From NCBI GenBank assembly GCA_002356515.1, contig AP017605.1, forward strand, positions 5,565,020-5,629,019: a stretch of 64,000 bases of DNA. The letters run 5' to 3'. A program made the translations under genes and the position numbers. Under the pieces are notes generated by a model. That model made no database searches. It was not told where the DNA came from and saw only the letters and a program-made list of their open reading frames with translations. This DNA is from Mesorhizobium loti (lineage in GTDB: Bacteria; Pseudomonadota; Alphaproteobacteria; Rhizobiales; Rhizobiaceae). This document shows positions 47,253 to 62,469 of this stretch, piece by piece (the first letter of the stretch is position 1; every line of letters starts with the position of its first letter).

Positions 47253-48812
47253 TTAGGCGGCGGAGACATCGCTTAGCTGTACGATGCTCTTGCCGTATTT
47301 GCGCCTGTAAGCGGCAATGAAATCGTCATCGCTACAGATGCAGCGGCCGCTGGAATCCTTGGCCTTCGGATCGTGCAAGCGGGAGCCAAGTGGGCGCAGA
47401 AGATTCACCCGAGTGCTCGTCGTCGGGCCCACGGGAAAACCCGCGCTGTGTTTGACGAGCTCGGCGGCAAGCATAATCCCGGCAAGCGCTGACTGGAAGG
47501 CCATCGGAACCACGGTTCGAACGCGGCGACTTCCATCACTGAGCTGGAACACCAGACCGCCGCAGATAGCCTGCTGATAAAAGGAACGCAGGGGCTGGCC
47601 AACAAACGGGGCTAGCGGTTCAAACGGCACAGCCATCGCTGTAGCCACCCGAACTACAAAGTCGTTGGGAACTCCGGCATTGGTCTGCAGGAGCGTTTTC
47701 ACCTGCTCGTGTGCTTCCGGTATTCCGAGTTCCTCGGCAATCAGCTGGTGCTCGTCCTTGGATTTCCCGGACGGCAGGTACATGCAACAAAGGCAAGCTT
47801 GGCCGTCATCGAACCCGTGCCGCGAGATGCCGAGGTCGTGCTCCTGCGTCCAGGCATTCGCGATCCATCGGGGCAGAGCACCTTGGACCGCCAGACGGTC
47901 GGCGGCGGTGTCAAGCGCCACACCCACTCGGTCGAAGACCCAGTCGCCGTGGCGCGCAACATATTCTGCCCACGTCAGCGGGTGCGCCTCGACCCCAATG
48001 GCCGTCGATCTAAGGGCGGTGGCTGCAAGAACCGCCTTGGACATGCCAATCTCCGCCTGGCCGGCCAATACGTAGCGCTGCAGGTTTGAGAGTTCGATTG
48101 CTTCGTGATCGATTACATGCAGACGACCCGTGAGACCGGGTTGTCTCGCTAGCGCCCAAAGCGAGCCATGGCCTATCGCACCGAGCCCAACGAGGTGCGT
48201 TTCGCCAAGGTCGACAGGTATGTCGATCGGGCCTGCCTCGCCGGCTTTGGTCTTGTCGTAGCTGTATAACGAGAGGTCGATGGTTTCGTCTAACTCGGCG
48301 CCGGTCAGCTGGGCGGCGAAGATGGTTCGAAAGACGTTGGCGGCGCCGAAGCAACTGGCGGCGCCAGCTCCATAGGGCAGCAAACTCGAGCCGGAGCCCA
48401 CCGGGTCCGTACGCGACAGCTTTGCCGCCCAACCGTCCGATCCCATGAAAAAGGTCGGGCACCGTAGTGGTGGGCGCGTCACCCCTGCAACTACGCAGAT
48501 GGTGGCAGACTTGCCGGAACGCCGGATGCCAACTTTTGGATTTATCGACTTTGCCAAGCGCTCCAGCGCTTGGGCTTGAAAGCTTGCCGCGCTGCCCAGC
48601 GGGAGTATCGCCAGAACTGGATAGAGCCTGGCGAGCAACCTCACCGCAAGATCTAGTGTCGCCTGGCCTTCGGCGCAGGAAGCGGCTTGATCGTCAAAGG
48701 CGACGGCCACGACCTGCTTTTCAAGAGCTGCTTTAAAGTCCTCCAGATGAAAATCGGCTAGGACCTGAGATGCCGCCGTGGCGGCGCGGTCGATGAAGTT
48801 AGCGAGTGCCAT
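47253..48812 (-). CDS. E1-like ThiF/UBA adenylyltransferase, ubiquitin-like operon 1
   Basis: Encodes 519 residues. A 200-residue N-terminal extension precedes the E1 Rossmann core: LVGLGAIGHGSLWALAR (GxGxxG at 209-214), HVIDHEAIELSNLQRYVLAG (Asp235, Asn243, Arg246), Lys259 and ALDTAADR (Asp301). A Cys cluster at 340-343 (ACLCCMY) may supply the catalytic thiol. Expected to adenylate the C-terminus of the Ubl encoded three genes upstream and pass it to the E2. Last gene of a four-gene operon (Ubl-E2-JAB-E1) with 3 bases between it and the JAB gene. Comparable operons (described as bacterial ubiquitination-like, Bub, or BIL) are linked to antiphage defence. Confidence 0.88.
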   Translation of the reverse strand: MALANFIDRAATAASQVLADFHLEDFKAALEKQVVAVAFDDQAASCAEGQATLDLAVRLLARLYPVLAILPLGSAASFQAQALERLAKSINPKVGIRRSGKSATICVVAGVTRPPLRCPTFFMGSDGWAAKLSRTDPVGSGSSLLPYGAGAASCFGAANVFRTIFAAQLTGAELDETIDLSLYSYDKTKAGEAGPIDIPVDLGETHLVGLGAIGHGSLWALARQPGLTGRLHVIDHEAIELSNLQRYVLAGQAEIGMSKAVLAATALRSTAIGVEAHPLTWAEYVARHGDWVFDRVGVALDTAADRLAVQGALPRWIANAWTQEHDLGISRHGFDDGQACLCCMYLPSGKSKDEHQLIAEELGIPEAHEQVKTLLQTNAGVPNDFVVRVATAMAVPFEPLAPFVGQPLRSFYQQAICGGLVFQLSDGSRRVRTVVPMAFQSALAGIMLAAELVKHSAGFPVGPTTSTRVNLLRPLGSRLHDPKAKDSSGRCICSDDDFIAAYRRKYGKSIVQLSDVSAA

Positions 48813-48815
48813 TGT

Positions 48816-49304
48816 TCAACTCGTTATTGTGATCATTCGCGACAGTGCCGCGGAAGGGAGCGCATTCCAGTTGGCTTTTCCGTCGAGCCGATAGGCGGCG
48901 ACTCGAGCAAAATCGAAAGGCTCGCGGGCGAAATTCGGCACTACCAGCGACAGACACCCAACCGTGGTAGCAACCGCATAAGCATCGTCGGTCGTCGAAT
49001 GGTAGGCTCGGCCCGGATGGCTATGGATCTGGGCCAAGAGTTTCAGGCCGCTATTGTAGAGCCAGACATTAAGCCGGTGCAGTTCCTCGGCCGGAACCAT
49101 CACGCAAACACCATCGCCCGTCCGAATGTGACGCTGCGCCGGGAGCACGGTCTCTGTTACGGCAAAATGCTGGTCTTGCTGAACGCCGACCCAGAGCGCC
49201 ATCCCCTCATTGCCTTCGCGACCAACCGAGCGCAGATGCGCATGCACAGTCGAGATGCAGTGGCGCGGGAGCGTCACGGTCGTTACATCCATCAAAACGC
49301 TCAT
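48816..49304 (-). CDS. JAB/MPN-domain isopeptidase, ubiquitin-like operon 1
   Basis: Encodes 162 residues. JAMM zinc motif: Glu33 in NEGMALWVGV, then LLAQIHSHPGRAYHSTTDD giving His94, His96 and Asp106 with Ser103. This is the deubiquitinase-type partner that trims the Ubl precursor or removes it from targets. ATG 49304 overlaps the TGA of the E2 gene; a longer in-frame start exists but would lie inside that gene. Confidence 0.9.
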   Translation of the reverse strand: MSVLMDVTTVTLPRHCISTVHAHLRSVGREGNEGMALWVGVQQDQHFAVTETVLPAQRHIRTGDGVCVMVPAEELHRLNVWLYNSGLKLLAQIHSHPGRAYHSTTDDAYAVATTVGCLSLVVPNFAREPFDFARVAAYRLDGKANWNALPSAALSRMITITS

Positions 49305-49918
49305 TCCGGGATGGCGGATGGGGGTCCTACCATCGCTCCCACTGAGATTTGGAACTGATACTGTATCTGCTCCACGGGGCCGGTCCCGTACTTGATGATC
49401 TTGTCCAGGATAAAGGCCAAACAGCCTTCGCCAGAACCCCGGTGGAGAAGCCATGAGTCACCTGAATGGGCTGGATTGTCGTGGTATTCCCGGACGCCTG
49501 CCATGCACAGGAATGGCGTATGTTCCGCACTGTTGGCCTGGAGGAAGTCCGCTAGCGACAGAGCTTTCTGCTGCATGAGGACCGAAATCATATCCGGTGG
49601 GGTTCCGGGTAGATGCGGTCGTCTGAGCATACTTAGCAGTAAATCCTTGCGGGCAACCGGCCGGCGGGTAAAGGGGTCGACGAAGACTACCGACGGAGGT
49701 CGGAGGTCGTAATTGGAGAAGTCGATCTCGACAGCTGCACCGATTATCTGTGGCCTTATCTTGGGCGGTGCGAAGATGAAGAAGGCAGTAGGGAATCTCG
49801 CCTCGATCAGGAAACAACCCTGAGCCCGGTAAGCGCCCGCTTGTGTTTGGAACCAGCCGATCTGCCGATCGAATTTCGCTCGCGAGACCGCAGGGTCCAC
49901 AGTCTGGATTTCAGGCAC
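49301..49918 (-). CDS. E2-like protein, ubiquitin-like operon 1
   Basis: Encodes 205 residues from GTG 49918, which overlaps the end of the Ubl gene by 8 bases. The C-terminal half has FLCMAGVREYHDNPAHSGDS then WLLHRGSGEG, a Cys138 followed by the conserved HxxPxHSGDxW block of a prokaryotic E2 family; the N-terminal half has an E2-like beta sheet (CFLIEARFPTAFFIFAPP, PPSVVFVDPFTRRP). Expected to accept the Ubl from the E1. Family assignment rests on motif and operon position, so the role is probable rather than shown. Confidence 0.75.
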   Translation of the reverse strand: MPEIQTVDPAVSRAKFDRQIGWFQTQAGAYRAQGCFLIEARFPTAFFIFAPPKIRPQIIGAAVEIDFSNYDLRPPSVVFVDPFTRRPVARKDLLLSMLRRPHLPGTPPDMISVLMQQKALSLADFLQANSAEHTPFLCMAGVREYHDNPAHSGDSWLLHRGSGEGCLAFILDKIIKYGTGPVEQIQYQFQISVGAMVGPPSAIPE

Positions 49919-50195
49919 CTGCTACACCCGCCTTCAGGCTGAGGAACAGGGTCACAATGTTCGCGAAACCGAAATCGCCAACTTTTTTGTCAACGTCGAG
50001 CAGGTTGCCGGCCTCATCCTTGAATTCCCAATTCTCGGCCGGCTGGGCGACGTTCTGCGTGTTCTCAAGGGCTTTGGCACGAACGACGTGAAGCGGCTGG
50101 TTGGGATTGGCTTCGACCTGCGTGGGCTGGCCGTTCACCACCACCGTGATCTCGATCTTGCCGCCGTGATCGCCCTTACCCGAATCCTTCGACAT
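49911..50195 (-). CDS. DUF2604-type ubiquitin-like protein, operon 1
   Basis: Encodes 94 residues from ATG 50195 with AGGAG upstream; the longer open frame has no support. After a polar 13-residue start comes one beta-grasp domain: KIEITVVVNGQPTQVEANPN, QPLHVVRAKALENTQN, NWEFKDEAGNLLDVDKKVGD, NIVTLFLSLKAG. It ends GVAGA, so trimming of one residue (by the JAB protein) would expose a Gly for activation. First gene of the operon, probable modifier of phage or host proteins. Confidence 0.85.
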   Translation of the reverse strand: MSKDSGKGDHGGKIEITVVVNGQPTQVEANPNQPLHVVRAKALENTQNVAQPAENWEFKDEAGNLLDVDKKVGDFGFANIVTLFLSLKAGVAGA

Positions 50196-50918
50196 TTGTC
50201 CTACTCCTGTGGCTTGCCAACCGGCCCCAGGCGCTTGTGCCCACCCGCTAGTGAGACCGGCGATCTTCAATCGTCCACTCGGCGCCACGGGCCGCGAGTA
50301 CGCAAAAGACAGGGGATAAGCTACCGAATCGGTGCTACCTTCTTTTATGCGTGACTTGAGCGGCAAGTAAACGGGCTGAAATTGCGCTTCACAACTATAA
50401 TCGATTAGAGCAATACGAAAATATTGGCGATACACCTATTTCATGTGCTCTTTCACGCGCCTGCTCCACTGACAGCCCCCGTGCAAGTCCGCCTGCCGGT
50501 ATGATTTCAGGTTCGATTGGGCGGGCGCTGTGACCGTTTGGCTGCGGCGGCTTCTAGCCGCTGCAATCTTGACGGAGGGTTTATCGAATAGGCAATCACG
50601 TGGAGCTTTAGAGCTGGTGATCAGAGCTCGGCCTATTCGAAAGGTGGCTCGGAAGCAGGTCGCCGTGACCAACTCCGGGTACCGGGATAGTCGCGACGAG
50701 AAGACGGGACTGTCCGGATTGACGTGAGTGGCTGCACCGAACCGTCGTCCGGGTGTGCCCGAAGAGTGATGTTATCCAGCTAACTTGTTGCGAGTGGAAG
50801 AGTAGAGTTAAGCAACTGATAATGCAACATTATCGTTCGTTTTATGGGCACGACAGGCTGTGCGTTTTAGGCCGAAATCGATGGCGTAAAGCGCACGGCC
50901 GCTTTACCCTCCAAAACC
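50196..50918. other. Divergent intergenic region between the Ubl operon and DUF1403
   Basis: No gene is recognised in 0.7 kb. It must hold the promoters of both flanking operons. A perfect 9-bp inverted repeat CGAATAGGC/GCCTATTCG at 50585-50593 and 50631-50639 encloses GAGCTTTAGAGCTGG..CAGAGCTC, itself partly palindromic, and could be a regulator site or an RNA hairpin. Confidence 0.5.
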
Positions 50919-51875
50919 ATGATTCGCCTCGATCCCGCGACCGCCAGCCCTACCACCACGCCGACTGTGCCTACCTGGGCGCTTGCCGCCGGCGGCGCGC
51001 CGAGCGACGCCGACGCCGCCTTCCAGGCCGGCGCCGCCCTGGGCGCCCTCGACGGCCTCGCCCGAGCACAATTTTCCTGGGCCGGGGCTTGGCGGCAGCG
51101 GCTGGCGCTCAATTGCGCCGCCACCGGCATGCGGCTCGCCGGCCGCGCCGAGGACGCGGCCGCCTTGCGCGACGCCTGGCACCTGCGCCCGGCCGGCGCC
51201 GATCCCGGCCCCGCCGGCGCCGTCTTTGGCGCCTGGCGGCGTTTGGCCGGGCAGCCGCCCGTCGCTACCCCCGACCGGCTCGAAAAGATACTCGACCAGC
51301 TGGGTCTCCATTGGGACGTCGAGGCGCTGGCCGCGCTTTGTGAACACATCGACGACCTGGCGCGCTCGGGGCGGCCGGCGCCGTTCGCCGCCGCGGCGAT
51401 CGCCGCTCACGTCGTCGCCATGCGTCCCGATGCCGAGCTTTTGGCCTGGTGGCTCGCCGACTTGGTGCTGGCGCAAAGCCTGCGCTGGCCGCGGCCGCTG
51501 CCGCTCCTGATGGCGCAGGCCTTTGGCCCGTCCTTCCGCGCCGAGGCCGGCGGCGGCCAGCGCATCCGACCCGGGGAGAAAGATTTTGAGCGGGCGGTCT
51601 GCGTGGCGCTCGTCCAAGCGGCGGCGGAGGCCTGCCGGCTAGCCGCCGACCTGTCGCGTCGCGCCGCAAGACTCCTGGCGGTGGCGCCGAAATTGCGCGC
51701 CAAGGGTGCCGGCGAGGTGATCTTCCTGCTGCTCAACGAAGACGCTGTCTCCGGCTCGCTGACGACCAAGAATCTGTCGCGTTTTGCAGCACGACGGCTG
51801 TTCGAGCGCCTCCAGCAGCTCGATGCCGTGCGCGAGCTGTCGGGCCGCCCCACCTTCCGGCTCTATGGACTCTAG
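50919..51875 (+). CDS. DUF1403 family protein
   Basis: Encodes 318 residues, very alanine-rich. Family signature: PTWALAAGGAPSDADAAFQA GAAL, WRQRLALNCAATGMRLAGRA, LHWDVEALAALCEHIDDLAR, AELLAWWLADLVLAQSLRWP, and the C-terminal winged-helix-like LTTKNLSRFAARRLFERLQQ. It is paired with an ScpB-like gene 2 bases downstream in many alpha-proteobacterial mobile elements; the function is unknown, perhaps chromosome or ICE segregation. Confidence 0.85.
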   Translation: MIRLDPATASPTTTPTVPTWALAAGGAPSDADAAFQAGAALGALDGLARAQFSWAGAWRQRLALNCAATGMRLAGRAEDAAALRDAWHLRPAGADPGPAGAVFGAWRRLAGQPPVATPDRLEKILDQLGLHWDVEALAALCEHIDDLARSGRPAPFAAAAIAAHVVAMRPDAELLAWWLADLVLAQSLRWPRPLPLLMAQAFGPSFRAEAGGGQRIRPGEKDFERAVCVALVQAAAEACRLAADLSRRAARLLAVAPKLRAKGAGEVIFLLLNEDAVSGSLTTKNLSRFAARRLFERLQQLDAVRELSGRPTFRLYGL

Positions 51876-51877
51876 CG

Positions 51878-52564
51878 ATGAGCGAAGCGTCCGCCCGTCG
51901 CAAGCCAAACGATCAGCCGGCGCTGCTCGACACCGAGCTCGACCACCTGCCGCCGGAATTGCGCTGGCGCGAATGGATGGGCCGCGTGGAGGCAGTGATC
52001 TTTGCTGCAAATGAACCGGTGCCGCGCGAGGTGCTGGCGCGCGTCGTCGGCAAAAGCTGCAATCTCGAGCTGGTCATCGACGACATCCGCGCCGAGCTCG
52101 CCGGCCGCCCCTATGAGCTGGTCGCGGTCGCCGGCGGCTGGCAGCACCGGACCAAGAAGGCCTTTGCCGACGTCATCCGCGGTGCATTCGGCACGCCTGC
52201 GGGGCAGGGGTCGAAAGAATTGTCGCAATCCGAAGCGCTCGTTTTGATGTGCATTGCCTATTTCCAGCCGATTACCCGTGGGGAACTGTCGAGCTTCTTC
52301 GGCAAGGAAGTGTCGCGGGACCTGATCGGGGTGCTGCGCGCGCAGGCGCTGATCGCCTCGGGGCCGCGTTCGCAGCAGCCAGGCGCGCCCTACACCTATG
52401 TGACGACCAAAAATTTCCTGTCGCAGTTCGGGCTCGACACGCTGCGTCAGCTGCCGGATTTCGAGGCGCTCGAGGATGCAGGGCTGCTGTCGAAGGAGAA
52501 GCTTTTGGTCGGTGATATCCCCGGATCACTCGCTGCTCGTTCGGCCGATATGGAGCTGCCCTGA
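51878..52564 (+). CDS. ScpB-like segregation/condensation protein
   Basis: Encodes 228 residues with tandem winged helices of the ScpB family: RVEAVIFAANEPVPREVLAR, LVIDDIRAELAGRPYELVAV AGGW, LSQSEALVLMCIAYFQPITR then GELSSFFGKEVSRDLIGVLR, and TYVTTKNFLSQFGLDTLRQL. The housekeeping ScpB is part of the SMC condensin; this ICE copy, coupled to DUF1403, probably acts on the element. It starts 2 bases after the DUF1403 stop. Confidence 0.88.
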   Translation: MSEASARRKPNDQPALLDTELDHLPPELRWREWMGRVEAVIFAANEPVPREVLARVVGKSCNLELVIDDIRAELAGRPYELVAVAGGWQHRTKKAFADVIRGAFGTPAGQGSKELSQSEALVLMCIAYFQPITRGELSSFFGKEVSRDLIGVLRAQALIASGPRSQQPGAPYTYVTTKNFLSQFGLDTLRQLPDFEALEDAGLLSKEKLLVGDIPGSLAARSADMELP

Positions 52565-52919
52565 CAATGGTTGAGGCCTTCCTTCTCGCCGCCCCACAAT
52601 TTCGAACGGGCTCCAGTGGATATATCCGGCCCTCACCGTGGCACGCTGGAAGCCTTCGCTGCCGCTTTGCCTGATCATTTATTCGATCGACCATCGCGCT
52701 GCCGCACGGGACCCGCACACAACATTGCCTGCGTGTATCGGGCTTTTGTCCGGTAACAATCAGGCGAATTTCCCAACTTGACGACGCGTTGGTGCGATGC
52801 CAGATCGACGCCATCTCCTGGATGCTACGCGAGACTTGAAAATAGCCGAAGGCCGACACGTACGGAGGCGGCCTTAAACAGGCGAGGGGACTTGTATCTC
52901 GAGTGGGCGGACATCCTCC
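52565..52919. other. No gene recognised
   Basis: Convergent gap between scpB and the second E1 gene. Overlapping short frames only; no clear terminator. Confidence 0.4.
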
Positions 52920-54311
52920 TCAGGCCAATCCGGCGGTGCCAAACAGAACGATGTCATGAGCTTCGCGCAGCACCAGGCTACGATGCTGTGGTGCCCTAAG
53001 ATCCAAATTGACGACGGTGGGGCGAACACCATCGGCGACCATCCGGATCGTTTGCGAAATCAGGACGGCAGCAGCAATCATACCGACAAAGGGAGCGCCC
53101 ACCGCCACTTGTCCCAACCGCGTCAGGCCGCATTCGTCGAGGTCGCCGCGATCATGGAGATCCTTATAAGCAGGCGGGCGCCCAGCTAGGGCAACGGGCG
53201 CATTTCCTTGAGGCCCCGCCTCGTCCACCTCCGGGCCGTCGGCCCAGATATCGAGCGCCTTGTTTGGCGCCGGGAAGCTATGGGTCCTGATCAGCCGGAA
53301 ATCTTCCACGCCGCTACCGAGGCCGGCCTCGAAAACCGTCGCAAAGCCCGCGCCTTCGAGGATGGCTCGCGCCTGGGGGTTGTCCACGCCGCAAAGCGCC
53401 AGCAGGGGTTCGTCGTGGCCAACACGCAGGTCGGAAGCGAACCTCCGCTCGACCATCCTGGACTGGAAACCGCGGGCCTCAGCCCAGTCAGCGCAGATGC
53501 GGGTCTTCAGCCGCCCGGCGTCTGTAGCGAAAGTGAGAACGGATGTGCTCTCGGTCGACGGCCCGGCCCGGTCGACGTCCTGAAGGAACACGCGGACATT
53601 TGACGGATCGGCAAAAGGCAGGAGCCCGATCGTCCATAGGAAAGCCTGGCCGAGATGGCCAAGCCCAATCACCCAGAAATCCGATGGGAACTGTGCCACG
53701 ACAGGTCCATCAGACGCCGGCGATCTCCAATCGGCGGACCGTTTGAGATCCCATAGCGACATCCCGATCGATCTGTAGCCTGCCATCGGCCCGCCATCGA
53801 AATGGGCGAAGACTTCCGACACGGCCAGCGCTCCAGCAAGCACGCCAGCGGGAGCAAACTCGGCAGAGTCGGGAAGGGCAGGGGCGTCGAACGGCACCAG
53901 GCCGGCTCGCCAGCCTTCGAATGTTGTTCTGATAGCAAAACCCGCGCGATCGAGCGCCGGCGGAGCTCCGATGCTGACAAGCGGAACGCCTTGCGGGATG
54001 TCTTCGACGACGATGCCCTGAAGGTGTCCTACCGCGTCAGCCAGGGTCGCACCGGCAACGACCGGCAACGTCAAAGGCGCGTCCAGGACGCCCGACACCG
54101 TAACGCCGCCAAGGAAGGTGCGGCGAGCGCAATTGAGAGCGGTGAGCAGCGCCGCCTGATGGGTCGGGCTCGAGGCTGCGCTCTCGCCGATGAAAAGATG
54201 CATCCGGAAAGAATGCAACCGCTGCTCGGCTTCCTCCGCGGTAGCGGCCGTGCCGCGATCCATGAACAGCTTGGCGGACCTGTTCAGGGTGTCAATGATA
54301 TCTTCAACCAT
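52920..54311 (-). CDS. E1-like ThiF-domain protein, ubiquitin-like operon 2 (BilD-like)
   Basis: Encodes 463 residues from ATG 54311, which overlaps the JAB gene by 8 bases and has AAGGAA upstream. The N-terminal 230 residues form an inactive or accessory half; the second half has the E1 core FWVIGLGHLGQAFLWTIG, VFLQDVDRAGPSTESTSV and LCGVDNPQARAILEGAGF. C-terminal PPAYKDLHDRGDLDECGL TRL gives a Cys-containing loop. It should adenylate the ISG15-like protein encoded upstream. Gene order Ubl-E2-JAB-E1 matches the BilA-B-C-D antiphage system. Confidence 0.85.
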   Translation of the reverse strand: MVEDIIDTLNRSAKLFMDRGTAATAEEAEQRLHSFRMHLFIGESAASSPTHQAALLTALNCARRTFLGGVTVSGVLDAPLTLPVVAGATLADAVGHLQGIVVEDIPQGVPLVSIGAPPALDRAGFAIRTTFEGWRAGLVPFDAPALPDSAEFAPAGVLAGALAVSEVFAHFDGGPMAGYRSIGMSLWDLKRSADWRSPASDGPVVAQFPSDFWVIGLGHLGQAFLWTIGLLPFADPSNVRVFLQDVDRAGPSTESTSVLTFATDAGRLKTRICADWAEARGFQSRMVERRFASDLRVGHDEPLLALCGVDNPQARAILEGAGFATVFEAGLGSGVEDFRLIRTHSFPAPNKALDIWADGPEVDEAGPQGNAPVALAGRPPAYKDLHDRGDLDECGLTRLGQVAVGAPFVGMIAAAVLISQTIRMVADGVRPTVVNLDLRAPQHRSLVLREAHDIVLFGTAGLA

Positions 54312-54828
54312 GGATTGTTCCTTCAATGCGCAGTGTGGGCCGCAGAAGCGACCGTTTGAGTGCGGTCCAGCGAAAACGGCCCAGGTAGCGATAGAGCCCG
54401 ATCTCCTCGAACCTAATCGGCTTGGCGGCAAAGCGAGGCAGGATCATCGCGATGTGACCCGGCTCGGCGATCATCGGGTGCAGCCGATCAGATTCGCTTT
54501 GCCCGGCACTGCCGGGGTGGGTGTGAACGTCGGCCACGACAACCTCGCCACGTTCACGGCAGATGTTCCACAAATCCGCCATCGAGCCGCCGTCGATCTC
54601 GATGATGCCGGTATCGAACGCGTGAGGATCGATCTCGTCGTAGAACACGATAGAGGTGATCCTGCGGTGCGCAGTACTCGGTCCCAGAAGGAAAGCGCCG
54701 CTTTCCCGGTGGTTGCCGCCACGCGCTCGCAGCCCTTGAAGAAGTTCGAGCCACAGGTCGACCGGGATCGAGAGATCAGGCGGCTGGCCGAACAGGCGCG
54801 AAATAAGCGAACGAAGCCAAAAGGTCAT
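54304..54828 (-). CDS. JAB/MPN isopeptidase, ubiquitin-like operon 2 (BilC-like)
   Basis: Encodes 174 residues. JAMM motif: Glu42 in RESGAFLLG, His102 and His104 in VVVADVHTHPG, Ser111 and Asp114 in SESDRLHP. Probably removes the Ubl from targets or matures it. ATG 54828 starts inside the end of the E2 gene (53-base overlap); an ATG at 54843 is also possible. Confidence 0.9.
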   Translation of the reverse strand: MTFWLRSLISRLFGQPPDLSIPVDLWLELLQGLRARGGNHRESGAFLLGPSTAHRRITSIVFYDEIDPHAFDTGIIEIDGGSMADLWNICRERGEVVVADVHTHPGSAGQSESDRLHPMIAEPGHIAMILPRFAAKPIRFEEIGLYRYLGRFRWTALKRSLLRPTLRIEGTIHG

Positions 54829-55252
54829 GGATGATCCCCACATAGTGAACAATTCCGCTGGCGGGCTTCCAGAGCAGTTCGGGATGCTCCACGATCCATT
54901 GCTCGTGCCCGGGCAACGCCATTCGGTCACACGGTAAATAAAGGGCCGCAGCGTTCCAGTTTGGATTGAACGCCGCCGCCACCCGGCCCGAACCCTTCGG
55001 CCAATATTCTGCGGCAAGCGGCGCGCCGGTCTCTATGTCGCAAGGCCTGGCGTTCGGCAGTTGCGCTGGATAGCCGTCCAGAAGAAAACGGAACCCCCAC
55101 TCGGTGCCATCGCGCGCTCTTATCGCGAAGTCGGCAGTCGGCCACGCCACGCGCAGCAAGCGCCATTGTTGTTTGATCGTGCCGAGCTGGAAATCAGGGC
55201 GCTCCAGGTGTTCCCGGAACGCCCTTTCCTCGGCTGTCACCAAGGCCTCCAT
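54776..55252 (-). CDS. E2-like conjugating enzyme, ubiquitin-like operon 2 (BilB-like)
   Basis: Encodes 158 residues. E2-fold pattern: EWGFRFLLDGYPAQLPNARP (the YPxxxP turn), then FNPNWNAAALYLPCDRMALP with the candidate catalytic Cys108, GHEQWIVEHPELLW and a helical C-terminus. The start overlaps the Ubl stop as TGATG. Differs clearly from the E2-like protein of operon 1, so the two operons are not recent copies of each other. Confidence 0.82.
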   Translation of the reverse strand: MEALVTAEERAFREHLERPDFQLGTIKQQWRLLRVAWPTADFAIRARDGTEWGFRFLLDGYPAQLPNARPCDIETGAPLAAEYWPKGSGRVAAAFNPNWNAAALYLPCDRMALPGHEQWIVEHPELLWKPASGIVHYVGIIHDLLASFAYFAPVRPAA

Positions 55253-55722
55253 CAGCCCTGCACCAACTTCTTGCGGACCAGGTCGAACACAATGGCGCAG
55301 CTTTCACCGGTGAAGCTGCCCAGATGTGCATTCTGCGGCGGCTGGACGCGGCTACCATGGATCTGGAGGACGTGCTCCTCGGCCTCCTCCTTGCCAAGGC
55401 CCGCCCTTTCCACGGCCCAGCGCGTCACCTTGGCGATCGTCGCCGAGGGCGCAAACTTGTGCTTGAAGGCTTCCGTCTTGTAGTGGACCGTGACGTCGAC
55501 CTTGCGGCAGCGGTGGGCATGGAACACCGGGTGATCATGGCCATGGAGCGGGTGGTGGTGCTCCAGGGGCTCGTCGTCGTCCTCCTTGAAAATCAGGAGC
55601 TCGGCGACATCGATACCGCGCTCCTTCACCAAGGCAAGGAGATCACCGACGACGGCAGCTCCTTCCAGTTCGAGGCGATCGAGAGGCTCGGCTCCGGCCG
55701 CGAAAAAGATTACAGTCTTCAT
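55252..55722 (-). CDS. ISG15-like double ubiquitin-like protein, operon 2 (BilA-like)
   Basis: Encodes 156 residues with two apparent beta-grasp units: KTVIFFAAGAEPLDRLELEG with VVGDLLALVKERGIDVAELL (1-50), a His-rich linker (EHHHPLHGHDHPVFHAH), and VDVTVHYKTEAFKHKFAPSA with TRWAVERAGLGKEEAEEHVL up to IVFDLVRKKLVQG. Ends in a single C-terminal Gly, ready for activation. The double-Ubl form is the defining trait of bacterial ISG15-like (BIL) systems, shown to conjugate onto phage structural proteins and impair virions. The His-rich linker could bind metal, an unusual feature. Confidence 0.85.
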   Translation of the reverse strand: MKTVIFFAAGAEPLDRLELEGAAVVGDLLALVKERGIDVAELLIFKEDDDEPLEHHHPLHGHDHPVFHAHRCRKVDVTVHYKTEAFKHKFAPSATIAKVTRWAVERAGLGKEEAEEHVLQIHGSRVQPPQNAHLGSFTGESCAIVFDLVRKKLVQG

Positions 55723-55883
55723 TTATCAGTTTCCTCTGTTTCGGCACGGCAACAGGCCGCCCTTGAACATTGGATCGGCTGAGCTCCCTCAAAGCGGAAA
55801 GGCCGCTGCCAAGATTTTTCGAAGATTGATTTTCGCCGCTAGTGCTTCGGCCGCCAAACGGTGCTGCCGAGGAAAGGTCCCGG

Positions 55884-58800
55884 TCAGGCTTCGGCGTTCG
55901 GCGCGGCGCAAATGAAGAGGTAAGGACAGCGCGGGCAGCGGAAATCGTCCTTCCTTGGCTCGTAGAGCCCGTCCCGAATATCTGCGATCGCCGCCTCGCA
56001 GTCGTCCAGACGCTTGTCGAACTTCGCCTTTGTCTGGCCAATCTCAAGCACGGAGCCCAGGAGCAGGTAATGGTTCTCGACACGCGTCTGGGGGCCGAGC
56101 GTCTCTTCGACGGCTTTGAGAAGAAGGGTCGCTGACAGCCGATCCGCATCACCGGTCGATTGCCGCCCCGAACGGATTGTCTTGACAACGTGGTTGTCGC
56201 CGTCGCGAACGACGCGGTCCACCTCCAGGCCGACGATCTCGCCACCAATGGCCGTGGAGAGGCGGCCATTGGTGGCGGCCGCTCCAGCCGCCGAAGCGTG
56301 CAACCGATCGAGCATCGACATGGTCAGCTTGCGATATGCAGCGCCAAACATGTGCTCTTCGAGCTCGCTTTCACGCCACGCCTGGTCAAAAATCGCAGCG
56401 GCTTCGGCGCGATCATATTCGACGCCTTCGCCGAGTTGGCGAACGAAGGCGATCACCTTTTGCACGCAGCCATGCGCGGCAAGATATGCGCCCGCCTTGG
56501 ATCGCTGTGACAGGCCCAGGACGCGCGCGTAGAAGAAGCGGCGCGGACATTGGGAGTAGCGCTCCACATCATCTGCTGTCAGCTCATCAGGGGCAGCCGG
56601 AAGGCGAATAGGGTGGTAGCTCGGCGGGGGCAATTTGCGGATCACGCCGGCGATGGAATGACCCGGGCCGACGGGAACACGCTCGAGAAATTTTGATGGA
56701 TTGGCCTTCCGGCCGTTTCGCGTGGTCGGCCGATAGAGTCTGAGGTGCCTCTTTGCCCTCGACATGGCAACAAAGAGGATGCACTCCTCCTCCGCCTCGT
56801 GAGCGTCCTCCTCCTCGGGGCCTAGCATTCCGACCGGCGCGGGGCAGGCCGGCGGTCGGTTTGGTGCGGGAACCGCTCCAGCGTAAAGCCCCGGCAGGTG
56901 GACCGCCTCGAACTCCAGGCCCTTGGATGCGTGAACGGTCATAAGGCGCACCCCGTCCAGCCCGCCCAGTTCGGGCGGAAGCTGTCTGAGGTCGCGCTCG
57001 TCGGCAAGCATGATCATGTGGCGGATGCGATCAAGGGCGCGGCGGATCGGTGTTCCCTTACCGTGGAGGGGCATGGCACGCAGCGCATCGAGGAGTTGGC
57101 GCACAGCGACCCGACGCAGGTCATCGGACGGCGACTGACCCGACAGAACCGTCCTTACATAGTCGCTTGTGTCAAAAAGAAACCGGCTAAGCGCCAGCCA
57201 GGGTGTGGTGCCTTGGGTGGTCCCTTGCAGGTGACGGGCCAACATCATCAGTCCGGCAAGCCCGGCCGGTGAAATTTCGTTCAAGCTCTCTATTTTTCTG
57301 AGAAGATCGAGAACCCGCTGCTCGGTAGTGCGTGCGGCCCCAATGACCTTCAGCACATCCTCCAGGGGAATGCGATATTCGGGAAGACCAGCGATACGCA
57401 CCAGGCCGGTGCCCGCGCTGTCGGAAATGATCGAAAGTAGGGAAAGCAGATCGCGAACCTCTGCGCGCTCAAAAAGCGGCCCGAGATAAAGAACGGGTAT
57501 TCCCCGTGCCTCGAGCTCCTCGGCAACAGTGGCAAGCAAGCCGTTGCTTCTGGCAAGAACAGTCTGGGAGCGAAGCGAAACGCCTCTTGCCTCGAGCTCG
57601 CGGATTGACCCGGCAAGGACGTCCATCTCGGCCTGGGTGTCGGCGCATGGAAAAATGGATGGGCTCTCACCGATCGAACCGATTGCGGCATGCAGCGTGC
57701 TGGTGCCTGCGAAGGCGCTGACTTTCATGGTGGCGCCAAAGGCCGTGTAGGCCTCGACGATCTCTTCGCTTGAGCGGTAGTTCTCTTCCAGGCCGTCCCT
57801 TGTTCCCACGGAGTAGTCAGCTTCAAACCTGGCTATGTTTGCCGCGGATGCGCCACGGAACCGGTAGATGGACTGACGGGCGTCGCCTACGACCCACAGA
57901 TTGCTGCCTTCTGCAACGATTTCCTTGACAAGCATCGCGCTGGCGCGGTTCACGTCCTGGTATTCATCTATATGGACGTGGGTGAAGCGCTTGCGCATTC
58001 CCTCCCGAAAATCCTGGTCCGAGCGCATCAACAGTGTCGGTCGCATGATCAGATCGCCATAGTCGACCGCCCGGTCCTTGATGAGCTGGTTTTGATAGTG
58101 CTCGTAGACCAGTGCTACTTCGCGCGCCTTCTCGGCAGCCACCACTTCGTCATCCGTCTGTGCCCTCACGCGCATTTGTTCGGCAGCCCGAGCGTAGTCT
58201 TTCCAGGTCCACAATTCGTCCTTGGCGCGCGCGATCGCTCGCAATATGTCGCGAAGCACCAGCGCTGGCTCGAAGAGATTGAGGTAGTGCTTCAGATCAA
58301 GGGCTGGCAGGACCTCCTCAAGCATTGCCACGCCTTCACTGGCGTCGACGATCTTTGGATCGTCCGAGACACCGAAAAGCGCGTGGTGCTTGCGGATCGT
58401 GTCCAATCCGAAAGCATGAAATGTTCCGGTCCAGACATTGACGGCGCTTGAGCCTGCCACGCGCTGGACGCGTTCCGCCAGTTCCAGTGCTGCCCTGTTT
58501 GAGAACGTAAGAGCCAGGATCTTCTCGGGTGGGACCTTGTCCGCGATCAGAGAGACGATCCTCGCGGTGAGGGTCTTGGTCTTCCCGGTTCCAGGTCCGG
58601 CCCCAAGCAGGAACGGCGACCCGCGATGATCGACCGCACGGGCCTGCGATTCATTGCAACTGTCGTTTGCGGGACTGAACGTCTCGGCAGTGGGCTGTAC
58701 GTCAGGCAGGAGCAGGCCGTCGGCAAGCTGCTGCAGGGTAGTGTCATAGCGCACCTTGAGGTCTTCAGAGATGCGACTTGCATTCATTCCTTGCAGAAAT

Positions 58801-59225
58801 AGTTGTTTGGCGAGCGGCCGCGGCAAAATCAGCTCTCGTCCAAAACTGTTGGCCTGGGCCTCTCGGCGCTCCTTGATGCCATAAGTCTCAATGCGCTGGC
58901 TGGGATCCCCGCCATTCGCTTCTGAGCGGGGATAATAGCCCTTCTCAACACCATCATGGACTTTGAAGTGACCAATCTCATGGGCAATCACCTCGGCCAG
59001 CTCGTCATCGGCCAGGTCATTACGCACGAATATGAATTTGAACTGACGATCGAGCGCGCCATGCGCACCGTCCAGCTCATGGTAGTCCGGTTCATGTGGT
59101 CGGATGGTGAGCCCGAGGTGTTTTGCCGCCCCGCGAGCAACCTCGATTGCTGTCAGAGAATCCGACAGTGAGGCGTCTTTCCTGAGCGCCCGAGCAAGTG
59201 CGCGAATTGCTGCAAACTGGTCCAA
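55884..59225 (-). CDS. ImmA/IrrE peptidase - UvrD helicase - PD-(D/E)XK-like fusion
   Basis: Encodes 1113 residues in three parts. Residues 1-175: zincin of the ImmA/IrrE type (VIAHEIGHFKVHDG, His82, Glu83, His86; Glu122 in EAQANSFGRELILP). Residues 190-900: SF1 UvrD/Rep helicase with GAGPGTGKTKTL (208-219), HIDEYQDVNRA, GDARQSIYRFRGA, LMTVHASKGLEFEAVHLPGL and CILFVAMSRAKRHL. Residues 915-1113: an AddB-like nuclease and Fe-S region with SQCPRRFFYARVLGL and the closing CPRCPYLFIC (1097, 1100, 1106), but at the active site GLEVDRVVRDGDNHVVKTIR lacks the D/E-x-K pair, so DNA cleavage is doubtful. Co-directional with two small genes upstream and 160 bases before the BIL-like operon. Likely a defence or DNA-repair protein whose peptidase could relieve a regulator on DNA damage. 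Confidence 0.85.
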   Translation of the reverse strand: MDQFAAIRALARALRKDASLSDSLTAIEVARGAAKHLGLTIRPHEPDYHELDGAHGALDRQFKFIFVRNDLADDELAEVIAHEIGHFKVHDGVEKGYYPRSEANGGDPSQRIETYGIKERREAQANSFGRELILPRPLAKQLFLQGMNASRISEDLKVRYDTTLQQLADGLLLPDVQPTAETFSPANDSCNESQARAVDHRGSPFLLGAGPGTGKTKTLTARIVSLIADKVPPEKILALTFSNRAALELAERVQRVAGSSAVNVWTGTFHAFGLDTIRKHHALFGVSDDPKIVDASEGVAMLEEVLPALDLKHYLNLFEPALVLRDILRAIARAKDELWTWKDYARAAEQMRVRAQTDDEVVAAEKAREVALVYEHYQNQLIKDRAVDYGDLIMRPTLLMRSDQDFREGMRKRFTHVHIDEYQDVNRASAMLVKEIVAEGSNLWVVGDARQSIYRFRGASAANIARFEADYSVGTRDGLEENYRSSEEIVEAYTAFGATMKVSAFAGTSTLHAAIGSIGESPSIFPCADTQAEMDVLAGSIRELEARGVSLRSQTVLARSNGLLATVAEELEARGIPVLYLGPLFERAEVRDLLSLLSIISDSAGTGLVRIAGLPEYRIPLEDVLKVIGAARTTEQRVLDLLRKIESLNEISPAGLAGLMMLARHLQGTTQGTTPWLALSRFLFDTSDYVRTVLSGQSPSDDLRRVAVRQLLDALRAMPLHGKGTPIRRALDRIRHMIMLADERDLRQLPPELGGLDGVRLMTVHASKGLEFEAVHLPGLYAGAVPAPNRPPACPAPVGMLGPEEEDAHEAEEECILFVAMSRAKRHLRLYRPTTRNGRKANPSKFLERVPVGPGHSIAGVIRKLPPPSYHPIRLPAAPDELTADDVERYSQCPRRFFYARVLGLSQRSKAGAYLAAHGCVQKVIAFVRQLGEGVEYDRAEAAAIFDQAWRESELEEHMFGAAYRKLTMSMLDRLHASAAGAAATNGRLSTAIGGEIVGLEVDRVVRDGDNHVVKTIRSGRQSTGDADRLSATLLLKAVEETLGPQTRVENHYLLLGSVLEIGQTKAKFDKRLDDCEAAIADIRDGLYEPRKDDFRCPRCPYLFICAAPNAEA

Positions 59226-59825
59226 TCAAGCTTCCAGGTGCGCGAGCCAAAACTGTTTGTCATCTGGACTGAGGTCCGAACTTCGGATCGCTTCGGCGAA
59301 GCTTATCTTCGCACCCGTGCGCCTGCCGGAAGGCGCGAAATAATCAGCCGCGGCGTTGATCTGACCCGATGCCAGATGTGACCAGACGTCTGCCATACTC
59401 GCGCCGGTGGCGTCTGCAAGCCAGGCAATCAACTTTCCCGGAATGGTGGTCTCGTCAATGCGGCCCCTGACAAGCTGACGCAGGATAATCAGGTCGACGC
59501 GGCATCGTTCAGCCAATGCTTGTAGGTCATCAGTTGACAGTTTCTCGAACGGGTCGATCGCAGCAGGCATCGTCAGCTGCCAAAACCGCTCCAACAATAT
59601 TGTATGCTCCGAAACTGTCTGTTGAACGGTAAGGATGTCGTCCGACAAATCACTTCCATCCGAAGCGAACCATTCGGCGGCAAAGGCCAGAATCTCGGCG
59701 CGCAGTTGCGGGTTCTCGTTTGCGATCTGATTGATGCGGTCAGCGGTGGCGCCATCCTCGAGCTCGAGGTGCACGCCGGCCAGTATATCGTCAAGCTGAT
59801 CCATAGGGATTGGGTTGCTGTTCAT
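59226..59825 (-). CDS. Unknown protein coupled to the peptidase-helicase fusion
   Basis: Encodes 199 residues, acidic. Not recognised. It contains LSTDDLQALAERCRVDLIIL RQL followed by TIPGKLIAWLADATGASMAD, which could be an atypical helix-turn-helix, and ends in a polar tail (DDKQFWLAHLEA). The stop touches the start of the fusion gene and the start lies 4 bases after the sigma-like gene, so the three are one transcript. Because ImmA/IrrE peptidases usually pair with an HTH repressor substrate, it is a candidate partner of that peptidase; this is inference from position. Confidence 0.7.
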   Translation of the reverse strand: MNSNPIPMDQLDDILAGVHLELEDGATADRINQIANENPQLRAEILAFAAEWFASDGSDLSDDILTVQQTVSEHTILLERFWQLTMPAAIDPFEKLSTDDLQALAERCRVDLIILRQLVRGRIDETTIPGKLIAWLADATGASMADVWSHLASGQINAAADYFAPSGRRTGAKISFAEAIRSSDLSPDDKQFWLAHLEA

Positions 59826-59829
59826 GGCC

Positions 59830-60594
59830 TCACTCTTTCCCGCGCCTTTGGCGTGGCGCGCTCTCCTCGCTCGCCCGGGCCTTCCGGCTCGCGCTCTTGA
59901 TCAAATATCGGACGTTGCGGTCCGTGCAGCCCATCTGCTCGCCTGCTTCCTTCTCGGTCAGGCCAGCCTGATGAACGTAGAATATGGCCAGGCGCTCCTT
60001 TTCGGTGAGCAACTCGTAGATCTGGTTCAACATAGCCTTGGCTTCCGCCAAAGGCATCGACCCACCCTTGGCCAGGCTCAGCGAATCCGCAGCCTCCTCG
60101 CCGGTCAGGTCGGAGCCCGGTTCGATCAGGTCCTCGCGCGCGACCTCGGTTCTCGTGCGAAGCCGAACGGCGGCCTTTGCAGTCAGATAAAGCCGCTCCG
60201 CACCGAGCTTGAAACTCATCTCGAAGATGTCTAGGCGGTCGGTTTCTATCAACTTCAATGCCTTGTCCTTGACCAGATCGTCCACGCGCTCCCTGTCCAG
60301 GTCCGACATATCCCTTGTCATTGAAGCGCCGGCCCGCTGCAGCCTTGAGAAGAACGCAACGATCAGGGCATCATATTGCGCAGTAGGTCGGTTCGGCTTG
60401 CAGTTTCGCATCAGGTAGACAAGCGTCTGAGGCCGCAGCTTGCCCGCCGCAGCCAGAGCAAACGCCTTTGGCAGCGGCCATTCAAGGACCGCCTCTATCT
60501 CGGCCGCCACCGCGTCCGGCCGGACGTAGCGCTCGCCTTGTTTGTTCGATCCCGCCAGTGGCTTCACCGGGCTCTCCCTTGGCAATCCAGTCAT
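59830..60594 (-). CDS. Sigma-70 region-4-like regulator
   Basis: Encodes 254 residues from ATG 60594 (the frame is open 79 codons upstream without support). The C-terminal 60 residues have LNQIYELLTEKERLAIFYVH and QAGLTEKEAGEQMGCTDRNV RYLIKSASRKAR, the sigma region 4 helix-turn-helix. The upstream part is helical with no clear region 2, so it may be an ECF-like factor of unusual build or a DNA-binding regulator. First gene of the operon with the unknown protein and the peptidase-helicase fusion. Confidence 0.7.
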   Translation of the reverse strand: MTGLPRESPVKPLAGSNKQGERYVRPDAVAAEIEAVLEWPLPKAFALAAAGKLRPQTLVYLMRNCKPNRPTAQYDALIVAFFSRLQRAGASMTRDMSDLDRERVDDLVKDKALKLIETDRLDIFEMSFKLGAERLYLTAKAAVRLRTRTEVAREDLIEPGSDLTGEEAADSLSLAKGGSMPLAEAKAMLNQIYELLTEKERLAIFYVHQAGLTEKEAGEQMGCTDRNVRYLIKSASRKARASEESAPRQRRGKE

Positions 60595-61209
60595 CTGGTA
60601 CTCTTTGATCTGACGAAGAATGAAAAAGCGGAAAGAGGAATTTTCACTTTTTTCAAACCCGCGTTTCCACCCCGCCAACTTGAGTGCCGCGGGGGCCTGC
60701 CATCTTCGGTGATGTAGGCCCAGAAACGGGTTGTCTGAAGCGATTCGACCTTTGCAGCCAATTTTCACGAAACGAAGTTCGCGAAAATGCACTCGTTTTC
60801 GTCGATCAATATTTTCCACGGAATATTTCAAAACTATAGCGCCGGAATAACAGGCGGGACATTGTTTTGAACCAAAAGTCGGACCACGATTCGGTCAGCT
60901 GCTTGCTATGAGCCAGGATGAGTACCGCGAATTCTGAAGGGCGTCGGACCAGGCCTTTGCTCCGTGGGTGTGAGCGACATATGCTCCACGAGAAGATGGA
61001 GTGCGGCAGGACTGCAGCGCTTGCATCCCCGCATAATGCCAGAATGGATAGCGACTTTCCTCATCGACGCATCGAAACTGTTGCTCAAGGCAGACGGACT
61101 TTGCTACCGAAAACCAAGAGGCTTTCGCCGCTTGCCAAGACGGTTCGGCGAAAATTTGACTTGGCGTAAGCTTTCGCTTGAGCTTCCGTTCGCCAGGAGA
61201 GCATTCCGA
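60595..61209. other. Divergent promoter region
   Basis: No gene is recognised in 615 bases. It should contain the promoters of the sigma-like operon (left) and of the SbcD-like gene (right). The frame upstream of 61210 is open but carries no domain and is probably not translated. Confidence 0.5.
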
Positions 61210-62469
61210 ATGGCATTTCGATTTATCCACACGGCCGACATCCATCTCGATTCGCCGTTGCGCTCGCTTGCGCTGCGCAATCCCGAGCTCGCCGAACTCG
61301 TCGGAGATGCCAGCCGACAGGCCTTCACCGCGATCGTGGATCTGTGCCTTGCGGAGCATGTCGATGCTCTGGTCATTGCCGGCGATCTTTACGATGGCGA
61401 CCAGACCTCGATGAAGACGGCGCGCTTTCTGGCCGCTCAGATAGCGCGTCTCCATCAGGCCGGTATCAGGGTCTACATGATTCGCGGCAATCATGACGCC
61501 ATGTCGCGGATTACGAAGCAGCTCGTGTTGCCCGACACGGTGACCATTTTTGGAGGCCGCTGCCAATCCGTGATGCAGCCTGGCGCTGGGGTTGACGTCG
61601 CGTTCCATGGGCTGAGCTTCGCCAGCCCAAAGGCACCCGAAAGCCTGCTGCCCAAATTTGCCGCCCGGCAAGAGGGAGCTGCGAACATCGGCATCATGCA
61701 TACGAGCCTGGCCGGCTCCCCAGGCCATGACGTTTATGCACCTTGCAGCGTCGCCGACCTGCACGGCCACGGCTTTGACTACTGGGCGCTTGGCCACATT
61801 CACGTTCGTCAGGTGTATTCCGGCGCGAGCAAGCTCGTGATGCCAGGGATCCCTCAGGGGAGAGACGTCAATGAGGCCGGCGAGAAATCGGTCACCCTGG
61901 TGACCATTCGCGATGATCGCTCTGTCGAGATCGAGGAGAGGCTCACCAGTGTCGCGCAGTTCGAGCGGGTGCGCGTCGATCTGACCGGGGCGTCGGAATG
62001 GAGCGACGCCATCGTCCGTATCCGAGCAGGACTGGAGCAATCCCGGGAGGGTGCGAGATCGCGCTACCTTGTTGCCCGCCTTGGCTTGGTCGGCACTTCT
62101 GCCCTTTCATGGTCACTGATGCGCGACCGGGACTTGGCTGTCGCAGAAGCCGAACAGGCAGCCGAGCAGGTGGGCGATACCTGGGTGGAGAAGCTGGAGC
62201 TTGCTCTTTCGGCTCCCGGTGTCGGGGATTTGGAAAGCGTTGCAGATCCCACTTTGGAACTCGCACAATCCATGCGTGCCAATGCCGGCTCAGAAGCATT
62301 TCGGTCCGACGCGCGAGAATTCATATTGAAGACGATCGCGGACTTGCCGCCCGATGCCCGTGGTTTCGCCGGCAGGGACGAAGCGGGGCTCGAACAGTTT
62401 CTCGACGATGTGCTTGCCGGAAGCGTCGACCTGGTCACGGCAAGGCTCAAGGCCGGTGCAACGCGATGA
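61210..62469 (+). CDS. SbcD/Mre11-like DNA repair metallophosphoesterase
   Basis: Encodes 419 residues from ATG 61210 (AGGAGA 9 bases upstream). Calcineurin-like phosphoesterase motifs in order: FIHTADIHLDSPL (Asp10, His12), VIAGDLYDGDQ, VYMIRGNHDAMS, IGIMHTSLAG and YWALGHIHVRQV. The C-terminal 150 residues lack a known domain. It overlaps the following gene by 4 bases; together they resemble the SbcCD/YhaO-YhaN pair, which processes DNA ends. Confidence 0.92.
   Translation: MAFRFIHTADIHLDSPLRSLALRNPELAELVGDASRQAFTAIVDLCLAEHVDALVIAGDLYDGDQTSMKTARFLAAQIARLHQAGIRVYMIRGNHDAMSRITKQLVLPDTVTIFGGRCQSVMQPGAGVDVAFHGLSFASPKAPESLLPKFAARQEGAANIGIMHTSLAGSPGHDVYAPCSVADLHGHGFDYWALGHIHVRQVYSGASKLVMPGIPQGRDVNEAGEKSVTLVTIRDDRSVEIEERLTSVAQFERVRVDLTGASEWSDAIVRIRAGLEQSREGARSRYLVARLGLVGTSALSWSLMRDRDLAVAEAEQAAEQVGDTWVEKLELALSAPGVGDLESVADPTLELAQSMRANAGSEAFRSDAREFILKTIADLPPDARGFAGRDEAGLEQFLDDVLAGSVDLVTARLKAGATR

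Follow-up and report, generated by a model that had tools for sequence, protein, structure and literature searches.

A predicted M78 protease/sigma factor controller upstream of one of two neighbouring ubiquitin-like conjugation operons in Mesorhizobium loti

Two operons for the conjugation of a ubiquitin-like protein (Ubl) lie side by side in a 64,000-nucleotide stretch of Mesorhizobium loti DNA (contig AP017605.1, positions 5,565,020 to 5,629,019; hereafter the window), raising the question of whether they belong together and of how they are switched on. To our knowledge, only for some controllers (CapW, CapH+CapP, CapK+CapS) has it been worked out how and when bacterial Ubl systems are turned on. 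The window lies within a 7.86-Mb contig of an 8.45-Mb genome in four contigs. An earlier note on this DNA had described two distinct minus-strand operons of the order Ubl-E2-JAB-E1, one with a single Ubl of the DUF2604 type and one of the BIL type, and Pfam, PADLOC and PDB matches bear this out, with gene junctions overlapping or within 3 bases (operon 1, 47253-50195; operon 2, 52920-55722). The Ubl-E2-JAB-E1 set of operon 2 stands as described, but the operon does not start at its Ubl gene: three more co-directional genes reach 60594, and operon 2 as a whole comprises seven genes from 52920 to 60594. The note missed these three genes, hereafter the trio, as well as the promoter-like motif shared by the sites P1 and P2. 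The features of the unit are listed below; L and G numbers are our labels for loci and genomes, and papers are cited by PMC number.

52920-54311, minus strand: E1 (BilD); PADLOC BilD 9.2e-165; ATP-site residues and Cys394 in 28/28 aligned members
54304-54828, minus strand: JAB/JAMM protein (BilC); PADLOC BilC 4.5e-62; E43, H103, H105, S112 and D115 in 28/28
54776-55252, minus strand: E2 (BilB, PF24702); PADLOC BilB 8.5e-54; Cys108 in 16/27
55252-55722, minus strand: Ubl (BilA), ending in Gly156; PADLOC BilA 1.6e-48; Gly in 25/25
55773-55800, minus strand: P2, promoter-like motif TTTCCGCTT-N12-GCCGATC, before bilA
55884-59225, minus strand: M78 (IrrE/CapP-like) peptidase-UvrD helicase-degenerate PD-(D/E)XK/Fe-S protein, 1113 aa; Pfam, active-site alignment
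59226-59825, minus strand: 199-aa protein, all helical, with weak evidence for a Cro/CI-HTH-like segment; proposed partner or substrate of the M78 peptidase
59830-60594, minus strand: sigma-factor-like protein (sigma4; sigma2 by model)
60607-60634, minus strand: P1, promoter-like motif TTTCCGCTT-N12-TCAGATC, 12 bp before the ATG of the sigma gene

The seven-gene unit and its recurrence

Judged by its PADLOC BilA-D matches, the core of operon 2 is a BIL system of a type other than operon 1 and of a known kind, which we take to be type I BIL (Millman 2022, Hor 2024), reportedly described there as a four-gene system. Operon 2 shares BilA-D with it in the same order, and adds the sigma, helix-turn-helix (HTH)-like and M78-UvrD genes upstream together with the paired motif. 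Hor 2024 is cited in PMC12948488. The terminal glycine of the Ubl, the assignment of both E2s by profile (PF14455 6.5e-88 in operon 1, PADLOC BilB in operon 2) and the ATP site of the operon 2 E1 (GxGxxG, Asp and Lys, identical in all aligned members, as is a Cys) agree with what the note had proposed. The E2 residue Cys108 is present in the window; within the motif Y-x-P-C-D-R, Trp, Tyr or some other residue takes its place in L132, in L149 and in all but one of the ten aligned BIL operons lacking the trio (L082 keeps Cys). E2s without Cys108 may either have their catalytic cysteine elsewhere or use a different chemistry.

Examining the trio, we found that the HExxH site of the M78 peptidase is kept in the aligned family of the helicase protein and that its helicase residues are conserved, while the (D/E)xK nuclease residues are lost across the same family. 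The sigma-like protein carries a sigma4 domain, with sigma2 found by model only. The fold of the 199-aa protein is weakly HTH (HTH_26 in 2/30 members), and DdrO is its fourth fold match, which is non-significant. G123 holds the seven-gene block at 94-98% identity and G039 at 72-83%; elsewhere in the order, the helicase and Bil proteins of other families show 35-48% identity, with the gene order unchanged.

To follow the trio, we used the helicase protein as an anchor, with E-value thresholds set to 1e-80 for the genus, 1e-70 for an even sample of the phylum and 1e-60 for plasmids. The 27 loci examined comprise 13 of 15 genus matches, all five new phylum matches and nine of 91 plasmid records, the nine hand-chosen for spread among the 60 matches listed of the 91; L104 and L134 represent one locus. 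A Ubl system lies directly behind the helicase gene in 26 of the 27. The exception, L133, has an IS66-annotated open reading frame (ORF) next and a multiubiquitin match 6.4 kb further; L111 has lost the first part of the trio block. The systems found behind the trio are BIL, multiubiquitin with E1/E2 and DUF6527 (which we take to be Bub), and multiubiquitin with E2 and JAB-E1, and their hosts are Proteobacteria and one cyanobacterium, Leptolyngbya.

A second, independent search started from the BIL side with BilB as the anchor and covered 30 of 37 available loci (15 of 21 plasmid records and 15 of 16 genome matches; the plasmid records left out are a Rhizobium phaseoli duplicate, three from Xanthomonas, Variovorax WDL1 and Sinorhizobium medicae CP140967). 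Eighteen carry the trio, counting broken trio parts in L086, L114 and L149, one (L127) has the first two genes only, and 11 are without it. In five of these 11 Pfam identifies an M78 peptidase, which in two is an HTH fusion, and in a sixth (L129) the annotation names one; L135 has a GHKL-ATPase and a winged-HTH gene (weak matches) in the manner of CapK+CapS, L137 an Xre/RES pair and L126 an annotated HTH gene. Insertion sequences replace the upstream genes in L151, and no controller was recognised in L082, whose operon is cut short. Since BIL operons without the trio mostly hold M78, HTH or CapK+CapS-like genes at its position, the trio occupies the place of known controllers. Divergent HTH-M78 fusions lie beside such operons at L084 11128-12276 and L136 9485-10663. 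G122, with too short a contig, was dropped before counting.

The trio of the window is adjoined by a plus-strand SbcCD-like pair (calcineurin-like phosphoesterase and YhaN/AAA_27; 60964-64000), which is also found beside the trio-Ubl loci L086, L104/L134, L114, L115 and L149.

A two-block motif before the sigma and Ubl genes

Two regions of each locus were searched for a common motif, the gap between the helicase and Ubl genes (P2) and the region before the sigma gene (P1). Expectation-maximisation on 26 P2 gaps, with near-identical loci left out, gave TTTCCGGTT-N12-nnCGATT, a model in which the 12-bp spacer holds ~70% of the weight and whose log-likelihood is 176; the shuffle controls reached 47-52 (mononucleotide, four runs) and 64-66 (dinucleotide, three runs). 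P1 regions, which were outside the training, have a site at within-locus p<0.05 in 12 of 38 loci, and in nine of the 25 training-set loci having a P1 region. These P1 sites are confined to BIL or JAB-E1 loci, and none of the Bub-type loci among the 38 has one. Trained on the ten Bub-type gaps only, the model finds the motif in 10 of 14 BIL P2 and 7 of 13 BIL P1 regions; training the other way round yielded a shifted model, which finds it in 5 of 10 P2 and 0 of 10 P1 regions.

Scores are low in the 11 BIL operons that have no sigma gene, ten of them reaching 6.4 at most and L151 7.9; L127, with a sigma gene but no helicase gene, scores 23.2. The P2 score falls below 8 in 5 of 39 loci (L114, L123, L125, L149 and L150). 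Before operon 1 the motif is absent (score 2.1). A strict pattern occurs twice in this genome, at P1 (60634-60607) and P2 (55800-55773), with zero matches for the reversed control; being built from P1 and P2 themselves, it shows the rarity of the pattern.

A proposed switch and its alternatives

Together, the data make it probable that operon 2 is the output arm of the seven-gene unit and that the three upstream genes form an M78 protease/sigma controller. In this account, DNA damaged or processed in the course of phage infection would be bound and unwound by the M78 peptidase-UvrD protein, whose peptidase would then cut or displace the small HTH-like partner encoded just before it, and loss of the partner would free the sigma factor. 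The freed factor would direct RNA polymerase to P1, before its own gene, for amplification, and to P2, before bilA, for BIL output, and the BIL proteins then made would tag their targets. The computed basis comprises the gene order, its recurrence, the peptidase and helicase residues, the loss of the nuclease signature, the sigma-like fold and the shared motif. From these we infer that the motif may be the promoter read by the sigma factor, and the DNA signal and the part of the partner in the switch are likewise predictions. Tagging of phage proteins is known for other BIL systems, and by analogy operon 2 may do the same. Activation by single-stranded DNA has been established for PprI (PMC10904395) and for CapP (PMC13373217). 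Taking all loci together, we lean, with some reserve, towards a wider DNA damage-Ubl conjugation switch in Proteobacteria and cyanobacteria, in which an M78-UvrD protein with a disabled nuclease would sense DNA and release a dedicated sigma factor, which would activate the Ubl system behind it, whether BIL, Bub-type or multiubiquitin-JAB-E1.

The main alternative holds that the helicase protein is an effector, a Gabija-B-like or RecB-like enzyme directed against phage DNA, and shares no more than its expression with the BIL genes. Its top PADLOC model is indeed GajB (4.7e-67), it matches PDDEXK_1 (3.5e-13), and the SbcCD-like pair adjoins it. Against this, the aligned family has lost the nuclease residues and kept the M78 site; in addition, no GajA was found among the neighbouring proteins scanned, and the helicase protein sits where other BIL operons have CapH/CapP-like M78 genes. 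We therefore regard this alternative as unlikely. Still less probable is that the sigma-like protein is no working sigma factor and acts as an HTH regulator or as a PhyR-like sigma mimic titrating an anti-sigma factor, given that both of its DNA-binding domains are modelled and that an asymmetric two-block motif with a preferred spacer precedes both the sigma gene and the Ubl genes.

How does the proposed M78 protease/sigma controller compare with known systems? CapH+CapP, CapW and CapK+CapS have been described as controllers of immune operons (PMC13373217). The trio resembles CapH+CapP in that its M78 gene comes directly after a gene for a small HTH-like protein and lies upstream of BIL or Bub operons, and other BIL operons hold M78 genes or HTH-M78 fusions at the same position, whereas in the trio the peptidase forms one protein with a UvrD helicase and a degenerate Fe-S nuclease domain, and simple repression gives way to a sigma factor. 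PprI(IrrE)-DdrO of Deinococcus likewise joins an M78 peptidase with an HTH partner, the two being separate proteins that form a protease/repressor pair in the DNA-damage response (PMC10904395). Gabija GajB has the UvrD helicase core in common with the trio protein, which differs by its extra M78 and degenerate nuclease domains and by having no GajA beside it. We know of neither a helicase fusion nor a sigma factor in PprI-DdrO. Among literature titles and the starts of abstracts, a search that does not extend to the Bub surveys PMC12145246 and PMC12885553 or the original BIL papers, we found no description of sigma/M78-UvrD genes with Ubl operons; in PMC13373217 the word 'helicase' occurs zero times and 'UvrD' three times.

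Operon 1 and the pairing of the two operons

The neighbouring operon has four genes, followed on the side of operon 2 by two spacer genes:

47253-48812, minus strand: E1 (BilD, 8TYZ kind); PDB 8tyz_A 1,052 bits over 1-518; PF14459 and ThiF; Cys417, GLGAIG
48816-49304, minus strand: JAB/JAMM deubiquitinase-like protein (BilC); PDB 8tyx_B 307 bits; PF14464; H-x-H...S-x-x-D, Glu33
49301-49918, minus strand: E2 (BilB, 8TYZ kind); PDB 8tyz_C 362 bits; PF14455 6.5e-88; Cys138, Glu144, His146, His151
49911-50195, minus strand: Ubl (BilA), DUF2604, ending in GVAGA, ATG at 50195; PDB 8tyx_A 171 bits; PF10790 1.9e-35
50919-51875, plus strand: DUF1403 protein, spacer between the operons; PF07183 1.5e-110
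51878-52564, plus strand: ScpB-like protein, end of the shared backbone of the integrative and conjugative element (ICE); PF04079 2.9e-32; 97% identity with L006 stops at 52519

The PDB chains matched are named 'Ubl(BilA)', 'E2(BilB)', 'DUB(BilC)' and 'E1(BilD)'. By sequence comparison, operon 1 is a close orthologue of this solved BilA-D set (8TYX/8TYY/8TYZ/8TZ0): all four proteins match nearly over their full length, catalytic residues are identical, and we see no essential difference. The solved proteins are presumably those of Ensifer aridi, and we take the set to be what is often termed type II BIL. The catalytic residues reported for a BilD (Cys417) and a BilB (Cys138, Glu144, His146 and His151) are present in operon 1 at the same numbers (PMC11354881), and the Prok-E2_C label that Pfam places on the N-terminus of the E1 corresponds to the inactive adenylation domain of that structure (PMC11354881). 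The operon kind is type 6c of Iyer et al. 2006, who had listed an operon of E1, JAB and metal-binding protein in Mesorhizobium loti, Rhizobium etli and NGR234 (PMC1779556).

As the note supposed, the setting is a symbiosis element, with nodC at ~23.1-24.3 kb of the window and a relaxase gene, presumably of the rlxS kind, ending ~50 bp from operon 1. Scanning named genomes for the E1 of operon 1 gave 50 loci, of which 48 have all four genes and 40 a relaxase within the fetched stretch. Hosts are Mesorhizobium, Aminobacter, Ensifer/Sinorhizobium and Rhizobium, plus one record titled only 'Bacterium'; among the plasmid matches are pNGR234a and R. etli p42a, the latter with 48% identity and with TIR-domain and caspase-family genes after the operon 1-type genes (L055 12265-13623). 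M. loti CJ3Sym (L006), a carrier of ICEMlSymR7A (PMC4572658), is among the 50.

PF14455 matched in 59 of 146 genus genomes, or 53 canonical cases once G016, G089 and G136 (weak or partial) and G004, G104 and G111 (divergent) were set aside. All 53 fall within the 101 genomes positive for nodC over the cut-off (hypergeometric 7.5e-12, a value that overstates independence since E2 and NodC scores are near-identical in many of these genomes, as from one spreading element). Operon 1 is thus an accessory of symbiosis elements, a separate and known kind of Bil system that travels with them. The divergent E2 group consists of G004, G104, G111 and G021:C11:81463-81990; the first three also match the BilB profile weakly, and nodC is not over the cut-off in G104 and G111. 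Nitrogen-fixation control of operon 1 was rejected: simple patterns found no sigma54 or NifA site in the 400 bp upstream of operon 1 in 14 loci.

Do the two operons belong together? The note was right that only DUF1403-scpB separates them and that their adjacency is unusual, and it raised the question of cross-talk. Calling the operon 2 kind type I (BilB anchor) and the operon 1 kind type II (PF14455 anchor), we found BilB in 12 of the 146 genomes, nine after weak matches in G004, G104 and G111 were dropped. The two types are found together in two genomes, where 3.3 would be expected by chance (Fisher p 0.49), and intact adjacent copies are found in the genome of the window alone. G123 has the two types on different contigs, with no type I genes in the ~8 kb fetched on each side of its type II operon, and G053 has a decayed pair. 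The 97% identity with CJ3Sym ends with scpB, and past it no CJ3Sym match over 150 bp was found within the 6.2 kb fetched beyond; the ORFs after scpB also differ in the other elements listed (L005, L006, L027, L047 and L050). Operon 2 thus has the look of cargo in a variable position, next to a neighbour that is conserved; the pairing is rare and looks accidental.

A functional pair with cross-talk gains no support from a pairing so little conserved, and we consider it very improbable. In its favour are the adjacency itself, a second, decayed pair of neighbours in Mesorhizobium LNHC252B00 (L048/L086), where 1.4 kb separate the remains of a type I block from a broken operon 1 E1, and a multiubiquitin+ThiF system near operon 1 in strain 131-3-5; these are outweighed by the chance-level co-occurrence, the single intact case and the variable stretch after scpB, and the two E2s come from different families.

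An ICE end between the operons found no support: neither the window nor the 20 kb that follow contain a tRNA gene. Meetings of Ubl systems with DUF1403-ScpB are not confined to the window: in Mesorhizobium 131-3-5 the multiubiquitin+ThiF system lies upstream of DUF1403 (L054 3625-5691), and in Roseovarius THAF8 a trio-Bub block is followed by ScpB-DUF1403 (L153 13704-15253). Beyond the window, a 5-kb ORF (L088 12918-18041) encodes a 1,707-aa repeat protein whose C-terminus resembles, by eye, a C48/Ulp1-type protease, a class found in some rhizobial type III effectors.

Both operons are of known kinds, and the surprise is the controller. For the operon 1 kind, the present work adds the tie to nodC-bearing genomes and the place near a relaxase: legume symbiosis islands and plasmids regularly carry this single-Ubl Bil system of solved structure, and its role can be tested on the model island ICEMlSymR7A, which, as seen in CJ3Sym, contains it. 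The controller proposed for operon 2 is specific and testable, with a predicted promoter, protease substrate and signal, and it recurs across unrelated Ubl systems; if the proposal is true, a dedicated sigma factor would head a bacterial ubiquitin-like immune pathway.

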